NCBI RefSeq assembly: GCF_014205165.1
Contig: NZ_JACHMZ010000001.1
Coordinates: forward strand, 5,624,501-5,688,500
DNA: 64,000 nucleotides
Source: Micromonospora carbonacea
GTDB taxonomy: Bacteria > Actinomycetota > Actinomycetes > Mycobacteriales > Micromonosporaceae
Direction: 5' to 3'
Part shown: positions 16,187 through 50,103 of the stretch, piece by piece
How positions within the stretch are numbered: the stretch's first letter is position 1
Layout of the letters: every line of letters starts with the position of its first letter
Program-made: the position numbers and the translations under genes
Notes under the pieces: model-generated
Database searches by the model: none
The model's input: only the letters and a program-made list of their open reading frames with translations
Told to the model about the DNA's origin: nothing

Positions 16187-16210
16187 ATATAGATTATCGT
16201 CCATCTATAT
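16187..16210. promoter_or_regulatory. Inverted repeat operator between GH44 and FN3-CBM2 genes
   Basis: ATATAGAT (16187-16194) and ATCTATAT (16203-16210) are perfect 8-bp arms around an 8-bp spacer. The element is strikingly AT-rich for this genome and sits 45 bp from the GH44 start. It is well placed to co-regulate both secreted-protein genes. Confidence 0.55.
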
Positions 16211-43264: not shown

Positions 43265-44098
43265 TCAGCGCCGGCGCGCCGAAGCGGGGCTTCCTGGCCG
43301 GCGCGGTGCCGGACGGCGGGGGCCGGCCGGCCGGGCGGGTGCCACCAGGTGCCACAGGGAGGCCCACTGGTGGGCGGTCAGGTCCTTGGGCAGGTGCTGC
43401 GGCCCCACCCGGTTGGCCCGTTGCCAGTCCTGCTGGTCCTTGCGGGCGATCCGCCCGGTCCGCTGAAGGATCTCCGGCAATCCGTGCCCCTTGCCGGTGA
43501 ACACCAGCCGGACGAATTCCTGGTAACCCCTCCGGTCGTCGACCAGCGGGGTCCCGCGACGGACCATGGAGAACAGCCCGCCGTCGACGGAAGGGACAGG
43601 CCGGAAGGCGCGGGCCGGAACCCGGGAGTGCAGTTCGAAGTCGTACCAGGGCCACCAGCTCGCGGTCAGCAGCGTCGCGCCGCCGACGCCGGCCCGCCTG
43701 CGGGCCACCTCCCACTGCACCAGCAGCACCGCCGTGTGCCAGTGGTCCGCGGCGAGGAGAGCCCGCACGATGGGGGTGGTCACGTGGAAGGGGATGTTCC
43801 CGACGACCACGTGCGGATGCTGGGGGAACCGGAAGCTCAGGACATCCGCGCAGACCACGGTGACGTTGTCGGGTGTCTGCCGGCTGAGCCGCTTGGAACG
43901 CTTGGAGTCGATCTCCACTGCGGTCAACTCCCTTCCCTGCCGGCTCAGGGGTAGGGTCAGCGCACCGTCGCCGGCGCCGATCTCCACGATAGGGCCGTCG
44001 GTCCGGGCGACGAGTTCGACGAAATCGTCGATCACCGAGCGGTCGACCAGGAAATTCTGGCCGAATTCATGTCGCCCGGCGTGCTGGATGTAGGGCAT
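43265..44098 (-). CDS. erm: 23S rRNA adenine N6-methyltransferase (Erm), macrolide self-resistance
   Basis: A 277-residue Erm methylase, which modifies A2058 of 23S rRNA to block macrolide, lincosamide and streptogramin B binding. It starts MPYIQHAGRHEFGQNFL, with the AdoMet motif VEIGAGDGALT (38-48), acidic VEID (61-64) and catalytic NIPF (101-104). The C-terminal Arg/Pro/Ala-rich tail is typical of producer enzymes such as ErmE. The ATG at 44098 has GGAG about 10 nt upstream inside a hairpin, behind a leader peptide. It sits at the edge of the macrolide cluster and is the obvious self-resistance gene. Confidence 0.96.
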   Translation of the reverse strand: MPYIQHAGRHEFGQNFLVDRSVIDDFVELVARTDGPIVEIGAGDGALTLPLSRQGRELTAVEIDSKRSKRLSRQTPDNVTVVCADVLSFRFPQHPHVVVGNIPFHVTTPIVRALLAADHWHTAVLLVQWEVARRRAGVGGATLLTASWWPWYDFELHSRVPARAFRPVPSVDGGLFSMVRRGTPLVDDRRGYQEFVRLVFTGKGHGLPEILQRTGRIARKDQQDWQRANRVGPQHLPKDLTAHQWASLWHLVAPARPAGPRRPAPRRPGSPASARRR

Positions 44099-44106
44099 GT
44101 GCGTGC

Positions 44107-44216
44107 TCCGCGAATATCGTTCGGAGCCGGTCGGCAGGGAACGCCGCACCGGCAGTGACCCGATGGGCGGCGACACTCATCAAGAGAAGCGATGGTCCGC
44201 CGCTATGCGCGGCGGA
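44107..44216 (-). promoter_or_regulatory. erm attenuator: two leader hairpins
   Basis: In the erm 5' leader a perfect 8-bp hairpin (44196-44203 with 44209-44216) overlaps the end of the leader peptide. A second (44107-44112 with 44124-44129) buries the GGAG ribosome site of erm. GGCTCCG occurs both in the leader (44219-44213) and in the outer arm of the second hairpin (44130-44124), so alternative pairings exist. This is the layout of translational attenuators of inducible erm genes. Confidence 0.7.
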
Positions 44217-44223
44217 GCCTCAT
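44203..44223 (-). CDS. erm leader peptide MRLRRA
   Basis: Seven codons encode Met-Arg-Leu-Arg-Arg-Ala-stop, 104 nt upstream of erm. Arg-X-Arg near the peptide start is the macrolide-dependent ribosome stalling motif known from ErmD-type leaders (MRLR). The codons lie in the first arm of the leader hairpin, so a drug-stalled ribosome would disrupt it. No Shine-Dalgarno is visible; translation near the 5' end of the message is likely given the -10 element just upstream. Confidence 0.72.
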   Translation of the reverse strand: MRLRRA

Positions 44224-44248
44224 GAAGCACACAACAGCCATGACGGGC

Positions 44249-44254
44249 ACTATA
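44249..44254 (-). promoter_or_regulatory. Probable -10 element of the erm promoter
   Basis: TATAGT on the minus strand lies 26 bp before the leader-peptide ATG. No consensus -35 is seen at 17-18 bp. Transcription would begin about 18 nt before the leader, giving a very short untranslated region. Confidence 0.45.
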
Positions 44255-44337
44255 CCCGACGACTGAAACGGCGGTGCGGGCCACCGGCAACTGGCTTTCT
44301 TCGGCGTTGGCCACCCGCTCTCACCAGTCGATCTCCA

Positions 44338-45786
44338 TCAGCGGAGGAAACCCCGTCGGTCTCCCCAGCCATCGGCGACGTCGGTCTCCATCTGGTTCAG
44401 CCGCGCGGTCACCGCCTGGTCGAATCCGTCCAGGAAGTATTCGTCGCCAGGCTTCGCGACCACCGATCCGCCGCTGGTCACGAACGTCTCCACCACCTGC
44501 GCCAACGTCGTGCCGGGAGATACCGTGCCGATGCGATAGCGGTCGGCACCGGCCAGGCCCGGAAACGCCGCCTCCCGATAGAGGTAGACATCACCGAGGA
44601 TATCCACCTGCACCGACACCTGCGGGTGGGCCGCAGGGCGCATCGTCTCCGGCCGGATACGCACGAGCTCCACGTCGCTTCCCGTCATCAGGCTGTGCAG
44701 GGCGTAGCCGTAGTCGATGTGCAGGGTCGGCGTCCGCTGCATTGCCCTCTCCCGGAACCGGTGCAGCTCGGCCTGGAGCTCGGCGCGCTCGTCCAGGGAG
44801 AGCTTCCCGTCCGGCCGCCCGCTGTAGTCCTCCCGCAGGTTGATGTAGTCCAGCGGGCGGTCCGGTGCCGCCTCGTTGAGCTCGGCGACGAAGTCGATCA
44901 GCGCGCTCAGCCGCCCGGCGCGGCCGGGCAGGACGATGTAGCTGAGGCCGAGCCGCACCGGCTCGCCCCGCTCGGCACGCAGCTGCTGGAACCGCGTGAG
45001 GTTCGCCCGTACCCGGGTGAAGGCCCCCTGCTTGCCGGTGGTCGCCCGGTATTCCTCGTCGTTCAACCCGTACAGCGACGTGCGGATGGCGTGCAGGCTC
45101 CACAATCCCCGCTCACCCTTGAGCTTCTGCTCCGTGAGGGCGAACGAGTTGGTGTAGAGGATGATCCGAAATCCCCGCTCGGCCGCCCGGCTGACCAGTG
45201 CACCGAGCCCGGGGTTGGTGAGTGGCTCGAGGCCACCGGAGACGTACACCGCGTCGCGGTTGTGCGCGGGGACCTCGTCGATGACAGAGGCGAACATGGC
45301 GTTCCCGTCGTCCAGCGCCGAGGCCTGGTAGCGGGCCCCGGTGACCCTTACGCAGAAGTGACAGCGGAACATGCACGTGGGGCCCGGGTAGAGCCCGACG
45401 AGATGCGGAAACGCCGGCCTCCGGTCGAGCACGGCGTCGAAGACGCCGGCCCTTTCGAGGCCGAGCACCGTGTTGGTCCAGTAGCGACCGGACGGTCCGT
45501 TCTCCACTGCGGTGCGCAACCCGGGAATCCGGGCGAACAGGTCCAGCAGCCGCCCGAACCCGGCCCGGTCCAGGCCGATTTCGCGGCGGGCCTGCTCAAG
45601 CGGCAGAAAAGGTGTGGTCCCGTAGATGCGTGCCAATGCCACCAACCCCTGGGCGGCGGCCCCGATCTCTGCCGGCGGCACGATTCCTGACCCGGCGACC
45701 TCGTCGTACAGCACGCGCGCCGCCGCGGTCGGGTCGCTGCCGGGGACAGCGCAGGTCGCCACGGGATTCGAGGCGGAGATCTCCAT
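44338..45786 (-). CDS. desII: DesII-like radical SAM deaminase for desosamine biosynthesis
   Basis: A 482-residue radical SAM enzyme. The [4Fe-4S] ligands are Cys138, Cys142 and Cys145 in PTCMFRCHFCVRVTG, followed by SGGLEPLTNP (the GGE-like AdoMet motif). It matches DesII, which removes the C4 amino group of TDP-4-amino-4,6-dideoxyglucose to give the 3-keto-4,6-dideoxy sugar. The ATG at 45786 has GGGAGGG upstream. The DesI aminotransferase that makes its substrate lies immediately upstream in the same direction (40 bp), so both probably share a transcript. Acts in the cytoplasm. Confidence 0.93.
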   Translation of the reverse strand: MEISASNPVATCAVPGSDPTAAARVLYDEVAGSGIVPPAEIGAAAQGLVALARIYGTTPFLPLEQARREIGLDRAGFGRLLDLFARIPGLRTAVENGPSGRYWTNTVLGLERAGVFDAVLDRRPAFPHLVGLYPGPTCMFRCHFCVRVTGARYQASALDDGNAMFASVIDEVPAHNRDAVYVSGGLEPLTNPGLGALVSRAAERGFRIILYTNSFALTEQKLKGERGLWSLHAIRTSLYGLNDEEYRATTGKQGAFTRVRANLTRFQQLRAERGEPVRLGLSYIVLPGRAGRLSALIDFVAELNEAAPDRPLDYINLREDYSGRPDGKLSLDERAELQAELHRFRERAMQRTPTLHIDYGYALHSLMTGSDVELVRIRPETMRPAAHPQVSVQVDILGDVYLYREAAFPGLAGADRYRIGTVSPGTTLAQVVETFVTSGGSVVAKPGDEYFLDGFDQAVTARLNQMETDVADGWGDRRGFLR

Positions 45787-45826
45787 GGTCACGGGCCCTC
45801 CCACACGTCCGTCCGGTGCCGTTCGG

Positions 45827-47053
45827 TCAACCGGGTGCCACCACGCTCTGTCCGTCGGGCCCGGGCTGCTGCTGCCACCGAGCGGTCAATTCGAATCCCC
45901 GGGAGACCGCCAACCGCACGATGTTGCACACCCTGCGGATGTCTTCCCGGGAGATGGCGGAGCCGGTCGGCAGCGCCAGGACGCGCGCCGAGAGCCGCTC
46001 GGTGTGCGGCAGCTGGAACTGCTGCCGGGACCGGTAGGGCTCCAATTGGTGACAGGCCGGCGAGAAGTAGCGCTGCGCCACGACGTTCTCGGCCCGGAGC
46101 AGGTCGACGAGCAGGTCGCGGTGCAACCCGGTGACGTCCGGGTCGATCTCGACGATCACGTACTGGTAGTTGTGCCGCTCGTCGGGGGCGAAGTCGATCA
46201 CGCTGAGGCCGGGAATCCGGGCCAGCTCACCGCAGTACTGCTCGTAGTTGGCCTGGTTGTGGCGGGCCACCTCGGGGAACGCGTCGAGCGAGGTGAGCCC
46301 CATGGCGGCGGACGCCTCGCTCATCTTCGCGTTGGTGCCGCCGGCCGCGCTGGGGCTGTGCAGGCCGAAGCCGAAGTTCGCCAGGGAGCGGACGCGGTGG
46401 GCGAGGTCGTCGTCGTCGGTGACGATCGCCCCGCCCTCGAAGGCGTTGACGACCTTCGTCGCGTGGAAGCTGAACACCTCGGCGTGGCCGAACCGCCCCA
46501 CCGGGCGGCCCTGTGAGGTGCACCCGATGGCGTGGGCGGCGTCGAAGAACAGGCGCAGGCCCGCGTCGGCGGTCACCTTCTCCAGCGCGTTGACGTCGCA
46601 GGGGCGGCCCCAGAGGTGGACGCCGAAGACCGCCGACGTGCGCGGCGTGATGGCCGCGGCGACCGCCACGTGGTCGAGGCATCCGGTGCGCGGGTCGATG
46701 TCGCAGAAGACCGGCTCCAGCCCGAGCCAGCGCACCGCGTGTGCGGTCGCGGCGAAGGTGAGCGATGGCATGATCACCTCACCGGTCAGCTCGGTGGCGT
46801 GCGCGAGCAGCTGGAGGGCCACCGTGGCGTTGCACGTCGCCACGCAGTTGCCGACCCCGACCATGTCGGCGACCCGCTCCTCGAACTCCCGTGCCAGCGG
46901 CCCGTTGTTGGTCAACCACTCGTTGTCGAGCGCCCAGGACAGCCGGTCGAACAGCCTGGCCCGATCGATCCGGTTGGGGCGCCCGACGTGGATCTGCTGG
47001 AGGAAGCTGGCGTGTCCTCCGAAGAGTGCCAGATCCCCGAGATCTCGCTTCAT
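45827..47053 (-). CDS. desI: DesI-like dTDP-4-keto-6-deoxyglucose 4-aminotransferase
   Basis: A 408-residue PLP enzyme of the DegT/DnrJ/EryC1 family, very close to DesI over its whole length (LALFGGHASF..., VGRPNRIDRARLF, SLTFAATAHAVRWLGL). The PLP Lys is Lys200 in SFHATKVVNAFEGG and Asp171 (DAAHAIG) contacts the pyridine nitrogen. It installs the C4 amino group that DesII then eliminates, the step that commits to a 4-deoxy sugar. The start at 47053 follows GGGAGG. The similarity to DesI rather than DesV is clear from the N-terminus and NNGPLAREFEER region. Confidence 0.95.
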   Translation of the reverse strand: MKRDLGDLALFGGHASFLQQIHVGRPNRIDRARLFDRLSWALDNEWLTNNGPLAREFEERVADMVGVGNCVATCNATVALQLLAHATELTGEVIMPSLTFAATAHAVRWLGLEPVFCDIDPRTGCLDHVAVAAAITPRTSAVFGVHLWGRPCDVNALEKVTADAGLRLFFDAAHAIGCTSQGRPVGRFGHAEVFSFHATKVVNAFEGGAIVTDDDDLAHRVRSLANFGFGLHSPSAAGGTNAKMSEASAAMGLTSLDAFPEVARHNQANYEQYCGELARIPGLSVIDFAPDERHNYQYVIVEIDPDVTGLHRDLLVDLLRAENVVAQRYFSPACHQLEPYRSRQQFQLPHTERLSARVLALPTGSAISREDIRRVCNIVRLAVSRGFELTARWQQQPGPDGQSVVAPG

Positions 47054-47118
47054 CGCCTGCCTCCCTCTACGGGCCACAGCTTCGCCAGCTCCGGATGCCG
47101 CCCGGGGGGCGGCGACGC

Positions 47119-48564
47119 TCAGGTCCTGGCGTACGCGCTGAGCTCGGCAGCCAGGTCGGGGGCCACCCGCGCCTGCAGCAGGGTGCCGTCGGCCGTGTGC
47201 TCCTCGGCCAGCACCTCGCCGTCGGCGTGCACCCGGGCCACGAGGCTGCCCGCGACGTACGGGATCAGGACGTCGACCCGGACCTCCCGGTGCGGCAGCG
47301 CGGCCTCCAGCAACTGCCGAAGCGTGTCGATGCCCTGACCGGTGCGGGCCGAGACGACGACGTGGTGCGGCTCGGCCTCCGCCAACGCGGCCAGGGCGGC
47401 CGGGGTGGCGGCGTCGGCCTTGTTGATCACGACGAGTTCGGGCACTCCCGCCGCGTCCACGTCCCGGATGACCGCGCGCACCGAGGCGAGCTGCTCCAGC
47501 GGGGCGGGGTGGGCGCCGTCCACCACGTGCAGCAGGAGGTCGGCCTCGGCCACCTCTTCCAGGGTGGAGCGGAACGCCTCCACCAGGTGGTGCGGCAGGT
47601 GCCGGACGAATCCGACGGTGTCGGTGATCGTGTAGCTGCGCCCGCTCGGGGTGGTGGCCCGGCGCACCGTCGGGTCGAGGGTGGCGAACAGCGCGTTCTG
47701 CACCAGCACGCTCGCGCCAGTGAGCCGGTTGAGCAGCGAGGACTTGCCGGCGTTGGTGTAACCGGCGATCGCGACCGACGGGACGCTGTTGCGCCGCCGA
47801 TCGCGGCGCTTGAGTTCGCGGCCGGACTTCATCTCCGCGATCTCCCGTCGGAGCCGGGCCATCCTCTCGTGGATGCGCCGCCGGTCGGTCTCGATCTTGG
47901 TCTCGCCGGGCCCCCGGGTGGCCATGCCACCGCCGCCGGCACCTCCGCCCATCTGCCGGGAGAGCGACTGGCCCCAGCCGCGCAGCCGCGGCAGCATGTA
48001 TTGCATCTGTGCCAGGGCCACCTGCGCCTTCCCCTCGCGGGACGTGGCGTGCTGGGCGAAGATGTCGAGGATCAGCGCGGTGCGGTCCACCACCTTGGCG
48101 TCGACGACCTCTTCGAGGCGTACCAGTTGGGCCGGGCTCAGCTCACCGTCGCAGATCACCGTGTCGGCCCCCACCTCCTGGACGATGTCCCGCAACTCCC
48201 GCGCCTTGCCGGAGCCGATGTACGTCGCCGGGTCGGGCCGGTCGCGGCGCTGGATCACCCCGTCGAGCACCACGGCTCCCGCGGTCTCGGCGAGTGCCGC
48301 CAGCTCGGCGAGGGACCGTTCGGCCTCGTCGGCGGTGCCCGAGGTCCACACGCCGACCAGGACGACGCGCTCCAGCCGCACCTGCCGGTACTCGACCTCC
48401 GTGACGTCGGCCCTCTCGGTCGACAGCCCGGCGACCCGCCGCAGGGCGGCCCGGTCGAGCCGTCGACCGTCGGCCTCGGCATCGGCCCCGATGTCGGCGT
48501 GGGCGTCGTCCATCAGGGCGTCGGCCTTCGCCGGATGCGGGGAATGGTGCGCTGCGGAGGTCAT
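47119..48564 (-). CDS. hflX: HflX-type ribosome-associated GTPase
   Basis: A 481-residue HflX GTPase. The N-terminal domain contains TYIGSGKARELRDIV, then the GGGG-containing coiled-coil segment (RQMGGGAGGGGMATRGPGETKIETDRRR region, about 220-250). The G domain has G1 GYTNAGKSS, G3 DTVGF and G4 NKAD. HflX splits stalled or stress-inactivated 70S ribosomes; homologues give macrolide-lincosamide resistance in Listeria and mycobacteria. Its place among macrolide genes suggests self-protection beside Erm rather than the housekeeping copy. Start at 48564; the frame is open upstream, so a longer N-terminus is possible. Confidence 0.92.
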   Translation of the reverse strand: MTSAAHHSPHPAKADALMDDAHADIGADAEADGRRLDRAALRRVAGLSTERADVTEVEYRQVRLERVVLVGVWTSGTADEAERSLAELAALAETAGAVVLDGVIQRRDRPDPATYIGSGKARELRDIVQEVGADTVICDGELSPAQLVRLEEVVDAKVVDRTALILDIFAQHATSREGKAQVALAQMQYMLPRLRGWGQSLSRQMGGGAGGGGMATRGPGETKIETDRRRIHERMARLRREIAEMKSGRELKRRDRRRNSVPSVAIAGYTNAGKSSLLNRLTGASVLVQNALFATLDPTVRRATTPSGRSYTITDTVGFVRHLPHHLVEAFRSTLEEVAEADLLLHVVDGAHPAPLEQLASVRAVIRDVDAAGVPELVVINKADAATPAALAALAEAEPHHVVVSARTGQGIDTLRQLLEAALPHREVRVDVLIPYVAGSLVARVHADGEVLAEEHTADGTLLQARVAPDLAAELSAYART

Positions 48565-48891
48565 CTGGGTCCTTTGCCGGGGGGATGCCAATCTCGTTGG
48601 AAGGCTTCCGGTCCCTTGCAGGCTTCCGGATGGCGGCGCGGGAAGCGAGGTTCGCCGGTCACACACTTCGCCGCGGCCGAAGCCGCGATGTGTGCGGGCG
48701 TCACCGGGTCGCCGGCCCGCGCCCGCCCGCCACGGACACGCACCGGCGGGGCTGCGGTGGGTGCGGGATCGCCGTCGTCGCCAAGTGTGTTTCCGACGCA
48801 CCTGGGCAAGGCAGGCGTCGCCGGGCGATGGTGGGACCGGGGGGCCGGGTCTGCCGTGATCAGCACATCGTCCCGCCGCAGGAGGGGAGTG
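48565..48891. promoter_or_regulatory. Divergent leader region with UUCG hairpin ahead of hflX
   Basis: In the hflX message a 6-bp CGCGGC/GCCGCG stem capped by a UUCG tetraloop (48672-48687) sits inside an outer CACACA/TGTGTG stem (48660-48665 with 48689-48694), about 95 nt before the start. A GTG frame beginning Met-Arg-Val-Arg (48743) reads through the hairpin and ends overlapping the hflX ATG by 4 bp. Leader control is possible. The other side must hold the promoter of the IS701-like gene. Confidence 0.45.
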
Positions 48892-50103
48892 ATGGTGCCG
48901 ACGCTCGACGTCCGCGAGGAGGTGACCGCGGCAAGGTCCGATCCGGACACCGTGTCCCGGTTCTGCGCCGCCCTGCTGGCCTCGCTGCCCCGCGCCGACC
49001 AGCGACGCAAGGGCGAACTGTACGTCCGGGGGCTGCTGACCGCCTCCGGCCGCAAGACCATGCGCAACCTGGCCGCCATCGCCGACGATCCGGCGGCGGC
49101 ACAGAGCATGCACCACTTCATCAGTTGCTCCACCTGGGACTGGGAGACCGTCCGTGCCGCGCTCGCCGGCCACCTGGACCGGACGCTGTCGCCCCGGGCC
49201 TGGGTGGTGCGGTCGATGCTGGTGCCGAAGACCGGCCGGCACTCGGTCGGCGTGGAACGCCGGTACGTGCCCGCGCTGGGCGAGACGGTCAACAGCCAGC
49301 AGAGCTACGGCCTCTGGCTGGCCTCGGAGACCGTCGCCGCGCCCATCAACTGGCAGTTGTCCATCGGTAAGGGTTGGCTCCAGGACAACCGCGCCCGCGC
49401 GAGCGTACCGGCGGACGAGGACGGCACGACCAGCGACGGCGCGGCGGTGCAGGCGGTGCTGAAGGCCGCGGCCTGGGGAATCGGCCCTCGCCCGGTGGTA
49501 ATGGACGCCCGGCACTCGGCGCTGCCCCCGCTGATCGAGGCGTTCACCACGGCGGGTCTGCCCTTCCTGCTACGGATCAACAGCGGCTGCACCCTGCTGG
49601 CCGCCGGGCCCGGCCCGCGCGAGAACCGGGTCGCGGCGGCCTCCGCCGAGCACCTGCTCAGCCTGACGCGGGCCCAGCGCCGTCCGGTGGAGTGGATCGA
49701 CCCGGCCAGCCCCGGCGCACGGCGCACGAGCCTGGTCGCACCGCTACAGGTCTATTGGCCGGGCCTGTCCGGTGCCCGCCCGCCCGGTCCGTCCGCCCCG
49801 GCCCCGCCGGGGGCGGCGCGCGCCGCCGCGCCCGGGCTGCCCCTGACACTGCTCGGCAAGTGGCAGACCTACGAGCGCGGCGTACGGCAGATGTGGCTGA
49901 CCAACATGACCGACGCCGGGTACGGCCCACTGCTGCGGCTGAGCAAGCTCACCCGGCGGGTCGAGACCGACTTCTCCCAGGTCAGCCTCGACGTCGGCAT
50001 CCAAGACTTCGAGGGTCGGTCATACCAAGGCTGGCACCGGCACGTCACCTTGGCGTCCGTGGCGCACGCCCTGCGGATGCTGGAGGGCGGTGCCGCCGGA
50101 TAG
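48892..50103 (+). CDS. IS701-like transposase homologue, probably domesticated
   Basis: A 403-residue relative of IS701-family DDE transposases. Retained: the N-terminal region (GELYVRGLLTASGRKTMRNLA, SMHHFISCSTWDWETVR), KTGRHSVGVERRY, VVMDARHS with Asp205, and the C-terminal FEGRSYQGWHRHVTL. Lost: the first catalytic Asp of the DDTG motif is replaced near Ser108 (WVVRSMLVPK), and the Glu before GLDHFEG is Asp. GGAGG lies 6 nt before the ATG. I see no terminal inverted repeats. A DNA-binding or regulatory role seems likelier than transposition. Its 3' end overlaps the convergent regulator by 59 bp. Confidence 0.82.
   Translation: MVPTLDVREEVTAARSDPDTVSRFCAALLASLPRADQRRKGELYVRGLLTASGRKTMRNLAAIADDPAAAQSMHHFISCSTWDWETVRAALAGHLDRTLSPRAWVVRSMLVPKTGRHSVGVERRYVPALGETVNSQQSYGLWLASETVAAPINWQLSIGKGWLQDNRARASVPADEDGTTSDGAAVQAVLKAAAWGIGPRPVVMDARHSALPPLIEAFTTAGLPFLLRINSGCTLLAAGPGPRENRVAAASAEHLLSLTRAQRRPVEWIDPASPGARRTSLVAPLQVYWPGLSGARPPGPSAPAPPGAARAAAPGLPLTLLGKWQTYERGVRQMWLTNMTDAGYGPLLRLSKLTRRVETDFSQVSLDVGIQDFEGRSYQGWHRHVTLASVAHALRMLEGGAAG

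Follow-up and report, generated by a model that had tools for sequence, protein, structure and literature searches.

What controls the erm gene of a macrolide cluster in Micromonospora carbonacea, and does the short R-x-R reading frame in front of it act as a drug sensor? The window that we analysed is a stretch of 64,000 nucleotides (positions 5624501-5688500 of a 7.53 Mb genome of the Micromonospora group). The original prediction, made from its letters, had placed before erm a minimal leader with mutually exclusive hairpins on a near-leaderless message. The gene and its neighbours are the following.

43265-44098, minus strand: erm, 23S rRNA (adenine-2058-N6)-methyltransferase, 277 aa (NF000499, 274.7 bits, cut-off 212)
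44338-45804, minus strand: desII-type radical SAM dTDP-4-amino-4,6-dideoxyglucose ammonia-lyase (TIGR04426, 774.7 bits)
45827-47077, minus strand: desI-type aminotransferase (TIGR04427, 693 bits)
47119-48615, minus strand: second HflX GTPase, within the cluster (TIGR03156, above cut-off)

Transcription on the minus strand runs through the HflX GTPase, DesI, DesII and Erm, with erm in the same direction as desII and roughly 240 nt past it, and further up lie a crotonyl-CoA carboxylase/reductase, an activator-dependent glycosyltransferase, a P450-derived glycosyltransferase activator and a modular PKS. Because DesI, DesII, the glycosyltransferase with its P450-derived activator, the crotonyl-CoA reductase and the PKS are all there, the host of erm is a desosamine macrolide cluster, and it resembles that of M. 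rosaria. Erm is 83% identical to the M. rosaria mycinamicin-resistance protein MyrB among the best 120 of 1657 matches of a homologous-protein search, which covered proteins, not DNA, and served for names only; the M. rosaria match suggests that the cluster product may be a rosaramicin-like 16-membered macrolide.

Upstream of erm the minus strand carries the elements of a putative leader.

44249-44254, minus strand: -10 hexamer TATAGT, 7 nt before the leader start codon
44203-44241, minus strand: leader ORF, 12 codons and TAG, MAVVCFMRLRRA; ATG 44241 conserved, ORF probably leaderless
44212-44220, minus strand: R-L-R codons 8-10 (AGG CTC CGC); R-x-R-x-x-stop in 34/36 loci
44203-44223, minus strand: 6-codon frame MRLRRA from the internal ATG 44223, which is not conserved

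The erm leader had been read as a frame of seven codons, stop included, with the arrest motif directly after its Met. That frame is present and reads ATG-AGG-CTC-CGC-CGC-GCA-TAG at 44223-44203 of the minus strand; however, the conserved start is not 44223 but ATG 44241, which lies in frame 18 nt upstream and extends the peptide to MAVVCFMRLRRA. At codon 7 the window's own copy, G140, L034 and L035 read ATG, and the residue right before R-x-R is Met in 10 of the 34 leaders described below. M. rosaria has ATC at this codon and Salinispora has AAA; the 6-codon frame therefore cannot be the conserved leader and was ruled out in that role. Nor is the leader unusually short, since it has 12 codons with R-L-R at residues 8-10. 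The start codon stands 7 nt past a TANNNT hexamer in all six of the first homologous loci, whose peptides include, beside MAVVCFMRLRRA of the window, MGFVWFIRFRRA in M. rosaria, MSLICFKRFRHV in Salinispora, MGYVCFMRLRRA in Streptomyces sp. ACA25, MICVCFMRLRRA in Acrocarpospora, which starts from GTG, and MVVVCFMRLRRA. Homologous clusters retain the leader, the loss of which would have spoken against the original prediction, and two of the first six loci lack the internal ATG.

The reach of this arrangement was assessed at 36 Erm loci, made up of the six first loci and 30 from a class sample (Erm protein search, 7 of 148 genomes at E <=1e-45, own included) and a sample from the family of G246 (26 of 150 genomes with an Erm match in the Erm protein search). 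A loose rule (TANNNT, 5-9 nt, a start codon, 6-40 residues and [RK]x[RK] at most 8 residues from the stop) was fixed after 12 of the 36 loci had been seen, and 23 of the 24 loci then unseen passed it; a strict rule, which demands the ending R-x-R-x-x-stop, was derived after the loose one. TANNNT followed by 6-8 nt, a start codon and a short ORF ending R-x-R-x-x-stop is found at 34/36 loci, and the leader combination occurs in 0/674 control windows of 340 nt from the same loci. An order sample, in which 12 of 150 genomes have an Erm match (own included), supplied 11 new loci out of sample: all 11 pass the loose rule and nine the strict one, the other two ending RPRR-stop, against 1/192 control windows under the loose rule and 0/192 under the strict rule. 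In a scan of 158.8 kb, covering both strands of the window and of five related stretches, the strict form appears only at the four erm leaders present, and a single unrelated loose match, MMAIDSRRLK, lies at window position 16209. The leaders span seven families (codes f1, f9, f17, f37, f41, f50, f52) and Streptomyces sp. ACA25. Many of the homologues are closely related, so the leader counts are not independent; L035 and L050 have identical leaders and probably represent one species, and those of L044 and L058 are near-identical. In a same-genus set, 96 of 160 genomes match Erm at E <=1e-20, of which four, own included, are close (75-100% identity) and the other 92 (33-47% identity) were taken to be KsgA.

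L046, from an eighth family (f27), was counted as a miss: its frame ends RERRA and TANNNT is not at the right distance. At the other miss, L063, the leader start and the -10 box stay and the R-x-R codons and first hairpins are absent.

Both Arg residues of R-x-R are fixed by the way in which leaders were picked, and the informative figure is the 34/36 loci at which one was found; in placing an R-x-R leader of the ErmD type, with competing hairpins, before a producer-cluster erm, the original prediction was right in kind. The distance from R-x-R to the stop is two residues in 34/34 leaders, although it was free under the loose rule. The residue inside the motif is I in 11, L in 10, P in 7 and another in 6 of the 34, and F or Y stands two residues before the first Arg in 27/34, while the N-terminal residues and the length (11-22 residues) vary between leaders. 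Leaders L048, L049, L077 and L080 are longer (21-22 residues) and end RDRRA, and by eye their TGA stop falls in the loop of a GCGCC/GGCGC hairpin, a stop-codon hairpin of the same kind built from other sequence. Arrest at R-L-R is established for ErmDL and for short MRLR peptides, the ribosome on ErmDL stopping at codon 7 (Leu) when Arg8 is next to be added (PMC8298421), and R-x-R leaders are likewise established for mef(E) and erm(K) and, putatively, for msr(A) (PMC4335068). We took the register from ErmDL and tlrB, which for the window's leader predicts an arrested ribosome whose P site holds codon 9 and whose A site holds Arg10.

The spacing of the promoter indicates how such a leader might be translated. 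Between the -10 hexamer and the start codon there are 7 nt in 37, 6 nt in six and 8 nt in two of 45 leaders, a tally that allowed 6-8 nt; earlier scans over 5-9 nt gave none at 5 or 9. The start codon is ATG in 41 and GTG in four of these 45. SD-like tetramers (GGAG, GAGG, AGGA, AAGG) are found 4-18 nt before the leader start in 0/34 leaders and before the erm start, in a wider stretch of 36 nt, in 32/34. By eye the window's copy has no -35 element at normal spacing, and its -10 box is 7 nt from ATG 44241 and 25 nt from the internal ATG 44223. Because the start codon lies at the usual +1 distance from the -10 box and lacks an SD, the leader ORF is probably leaderless, with the A of ATG 44241 at or adjoining +1, and the near-leaderless message expected from the first reading probably does begin beside the leader.

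Further upstream the 45 loci are AT-rich at -32 to -29, counted from the hexamer (A+T 0.58-0.73, against 0.11-0.31 at -42 to -36); in L090, L091, L059, L056 and L071 this block is followed by TTG a few nt on, and the window's copy lacks it at this register. In the homologues it resembles the WhiB7 promoter box.

From the last codons of the leader ORF to the erm SD we recognized six segments that were conserved in an alignment (A2) of 28 of the 34 leaders. A2 omits L047, L048, L049, L062 and L066 (length), L050 (a repeat of L035) and the 11 out-of-sample loci.

44209-44215, minus strand: segment 1, CCGCCGC, codons 9-11; 1:2 helix paired in 96.4% of cells, 28 sequences
44197-44203, minus strand: segment 2, GCGGCGG, pairing with segment 1 or segment 3; 2:3 helix paired in 98.5% of cells
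44167-44173, minus strand: segment 3, TCGCCGC, partner of segment 2 or, in most homologues, of the SD segment
44143-44153, minus strand: segment 4, GCCGGTGCGGC; 4:5 hairpin paired in 98.8% of cells
44122-44135, minus strand: segment 5, GCCGACCGGCTCCG, with the anti-SD heptamer GGCTCCG; 4:5 and 5:6 pairings
44105-44110, minus strand: segment 6, CGGAGC, with the erm SD GGAG 44109-44106; GGAG in 28/28 aligned

The hairpin said to overlap the leader frame is found as CCGCCGC/GCGGCGG (44215-44209 with 44203-44197), and the second hairpin, at the erm ribosome site, as GCTCCG/CGGAGC (44127-44122 with 44110-44105), which can cover the SD; the heptamer GGCTCCG is repeated, at 44219-44213 and 44128-44122. 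In A2 the 3:6 helix, which has two parts, is paired in 94.6 and 99.1% of cells, and pairing falls to 32-49% when partners are slid by 1-3 columns. The 1:2, 3:6 and 4:5 helices together are 97.7% paired with two compensatory changes, one in 1:2 in Salinispora (G-C to A-U) and one in 4:5 in L034 (Streptomyces ACA25), a combination reached by 1/500 shuffles; a control slide of +2 columns also gives two pairs changed on both sides, and the set of 2:3 with 4:5 does not exceed shuffles in covariation (125/500). Because the covariation is thin, the case for a switch rests more on conservation and computed energetics. Rfam covariance models gave 0 matches at E up to 1 in the region 43900-44500.

In the window's copy the 3:6 helix is weak, with wobbles and a G/A mismatch (U-A in 27/28 sequences), and the 5:6 helix (GCTCCG/CGGAGC) forms 6/6 pairs; the full 5:6 helix is present in 18/28 sequences. 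In these models the SD is likely to be masked by segment 3 in most homologues and by segment 5 in the window's copy. A long-range pairing of leader codons 4-7 with the erm SD, favoured by RNAalifold for the six first loci, was rejected as a general feature, with mismatches in Salinispora and M. rosaria and no place in the 28-locus consensus; it is a possible extra mask in the window's copy.

We then modelled the effect of a ribosome on the fold, taking a footprint of -12 to +15 around the P-site codon and, as the quantity, the cost of opening the erm GGAG. In the window's copy this cost is 8.4 kcal/mol for the free RNA, 4.4 kcal/mol with the P site at codon 9 and 8.5 kcal/mol at codon 12. Over six loci the mean fall is 3.46 kcal/mol, compared with 0.21 in shuffles (sd 0.60, max 2.59); with a footprint reach of 12, 15 or 18 nt the six-locus mean is 4.14, 3.46 or 2.04 kcal/mol, shuffles having been computed for 15 only. 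In a set of 33 loci, which comprises the 34 leaders minus L047 (no GGAG) and leaves out the 11 out-of-sample loci, the mean fall is 1.70 kcal/mol against 0.14 in shuffles (sd 0.26, max 0.85, 30 rounds). A fall was counted in 25/33 loci, among them L055 by 0.0, and amounts to at least 1 kcal/mol in 22/33, as it does in 18% of single shuffles; the sign is wrong in 8/33, by 3.0 kcal/mol in L048 and 2.5 kcal/mol in L073. For the stretch from SD to AUG the cost at codon 9 falls in five of the six first loci, the fall in M. rosaria being small (9.9 to 8.7), and rises in Salinispora from 8.0 to 10.0. Folding the leader with a ribosome in place, a check that the original prediction had named, brings the cost in the window's copy down from 8.4 to 4.4 at codon 9, yet most of the SD pairing persists in the ensemble when the ribosome is stalled; what the model predicts is therefore a reduced barrier and not an open site.

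Taken together, we consider it probable that erm is controlled by ErmD-like, macrolide-dependent translational attenuation with a leaderless sensor ORF; the start of transcription, arrest by the native (16-membered) drug and the exact refolding path are the parts that we infer. Transcription would start at or beside the A of ATG 44241, and because the transcript starts there the ribosome could begin the 12-codon leader MAVVCFMRLRRA without a Shine-Dalgarno sequence. In the absence of drug it would reach the stop, the 1:2 stop-codon hairpin would form and the erm SD would be masked; the mask would be segment 5, perhaps together with the leader codons, in the window's copy and mostly segment 3 in the homologues. 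Once the cell's own macrolide occupies the exit tunnel, translation would arrest at R-L-R with codon 9 in the P site and the ribosome would cover segment 1, leaving segment 2 free for segment 3; the 2:3 pairing would make the SD cheaper to open, Erm would be made and A2058 would be methylated. In ermC, which has an SD-led leader, the 1:2 and 3:4 hairpins are exchanged for 2:3, and the logic proposed here would be similar, with 1:2 and a masked SD exchanged for 2:3.

Three other readings were weighed. We regard as unlikely a transcriptional attenuation resembling that of ermK or tlrB, in which the stalled ribosome would prevent a terminator, possibly Rho-dependent, from acting between leader and erm. 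Transcription attenuation with R-x-R leaders is reported for both of these genes, and a leaderless leader could be expected to couple translation tightly to transcription; against this, by eye the interval between leader and erm has no hairpin with a clear U run after it, and the erm SD itself takes part in conserved pairings. That erm is constitutive, through read-through from desII or a promoter of its own, with the leader a relic, appears highly unlikely when the leader, its spacing and R-x-R-x-x-stop are kept at 34/36 and 9/11 loci from seven families while N-terminus and length vary. It would nonetheless agree with the co-directional position of erm about 240 nt after desII, with the weak 3:6 helix of the window's copy and with the stretch between desII and the leader, where a terminator is not evident because it folds no better than shuffles (z -0.46). 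Scarcely credible, although the MRLRRA frame does exist at 44223-44203, is a 6-codon leader with arrest right after its start, given that M. rosaria and Salinispora carry ATC and AAA in place of the internal ATG, that Met precedes R-x-R in 10/34 leaders, that no SD is visible before ATG 44223 and that the -10 box is 25 nt from it and 7 nt from the upstream start.

The candidate terminator between desII and the leader was considered at other loci as well; the window's copy shows nothing unusual at z -0.46, and strong folds occur in L005 (z -2.40) and L034 (z -3.95).

Among the elements of translational attenuation with a leaderless sensor, R-x-R arrest in erm leaders and inducible self-resistance in producers are already known, and the probably leaderless leader ORF is the element that appears to be new against the literature searched. 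Kamimiya and Weisblum (1988, 1997) reportedly described translational attenuation of ermSF and induction of ermSV by 16-membered macrolides in Streptomyces producers. In the pikromycin producer S. venezuelae, pikR1/pikR2 provide inducible Erm-type self-resistance that is activated by ketolides (PMC6685928, PMC8298421). The ErmD/ErmK leader of Bacillus, MTHSMRLRFPTLNQ, has R-L-R before an erm gene as the window's leader does; it comes from a Firmicute, its peptide runs on past R-L-R, and transcriptional attenuation is reported for erm(K). The window's leader, in contrast, is probably leaderless, has its stop two codons past R-x-R and places that stop where loop and stem of the first hairpin meet. 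A comparison of peptides, not of DNA, gave no case of descent from the ErmD/ErmK leader (MTHSMRLR start), the peptides sharing R-x-R alone.

The leader of B. subtilis tlrB (yxjB), MIIQFIRYR, arrests at R-Y-R with 16-membered tylosin and not with erythromycin (PMC6851288). Its F-x-R-x-R spacing matches that of the window-type leaders, and the M. rosaria leader has F-I-R-F-R; this likeness may reflect shared drug specificity or chance. The tlrB system differs in that the enzyme methylates G748, the leader has its own SD, and a terminator and a NusG-dependent pause are involved (PMC6851288). In S. aureus ermC the ribosome-binding site is masked until a ribosome arrests on the leader, as we propose here, but the arrest motif is MGIFSIFVIS (PMC13410324) and the window's locus has the additional 4:5 hairpin.

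Similar leaders are carried by plasmids. Seven of 41 plasmid records with an Erm match were examined, and in five of the seven erm genes a -10 box lies 7 nt before a leader with [RK]x[RK]. The leaders of erm(X), MLISGTAFLRLRSNR, and erm(36), MGSPSIAVTRFRRF, are like that of the window in having TATAAT or TAGGGT, 7 nt and ATG; erm(X) differs in its stop-codon hairpin, AACCGC/GCGGTT by eye, and in the three residues that follow R-L-R. The other fitting leaders come from Kocuria (MGTICTAPVTGRFFTFRDRRA), Dietzia (MGKLICGFAAAHSLAVRDRRA) and Nocardioides (MLFHGTASLRLRSRQQ..., a 29-residue frame). By eye, erm(46) lies outside the rule with TAGGGT, 6 nt and GTG (MGNTNIAVTEFRRF), as does erm(51) with TATGAT, 7 nt, ATG and R-L-R in mid-peptide. 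The leaders of erm(46) (L074) and erm(36) (L076) are similar, but the position of the first Arg of R-x-R in erm(36) is taken by Glu in erm(46).

A broader and more tentative reading, plausible if somewhat short of favoured, is that a single ancestral sensor, a leaderless R-x-R leader, is common to the erm genes of actinobacteria and has been retained from producer clusters through to plasmid-borne relatives (erm(36), and erm(X) with a changed end). In it the start codon would be the first base of the transcript, the stop would stand two codons past the motif, and the sensor would be tuned to 16-membered macrolides by a Phe two residues ahead of R-x-R. If this is true, sensing would rely on leaderless-mRNA initiation, whereas translation of the resistance ORF relies on an SD. 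How the ermD regulatory circuit arose has been described as unknown, with the suggestion that it may have begun in a macrolide producer (PMC8298421); a family of R-x-R leaders that is found in producer clusters and in seven families makes such an origin testable. The titles and abstracts that we found describe no leaderless erm leader, the subscription literature being mostly outside that search, and leaderless translation and attenuation by erm leader peptides, two subjects joined here, were not found joined in the literature searched. The geometry, being fixed, offers a simple search rule for these leaders; as ORFs of 10-22 codons without an SD they are presumably easy to miss.

The surroundings of erm differ between loci. 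In Salinispora mooreana (L083; erm 4401-3574), a tblastn search of the 11.6 kb upstream for desI, desII and hflX found no match, and the DNA that precedes the leader is similar to the desII 3' end. Because this desII-like end remains without matches to the three genes, that erm seems to have left a desosamine cluster. The HflX copy in the cluster is 63% identical to the other copy in the genome (G000:C1:4993785), and in G140 (92%) and M. rosaria (86%) the cluster hflX likewise adjoins desI. HflX is a ribosome-splitting factor, and for this reason the cluster copy may be a second self-protection factor. Divergent from hflX, at 48651-50100 on the plus strand, lies a reading frame that by eye is transposase-like; its counterparts in G140 (80%) and M. 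rosaria (69%) have the corresponding position, an unusual constancy for a mobile element.
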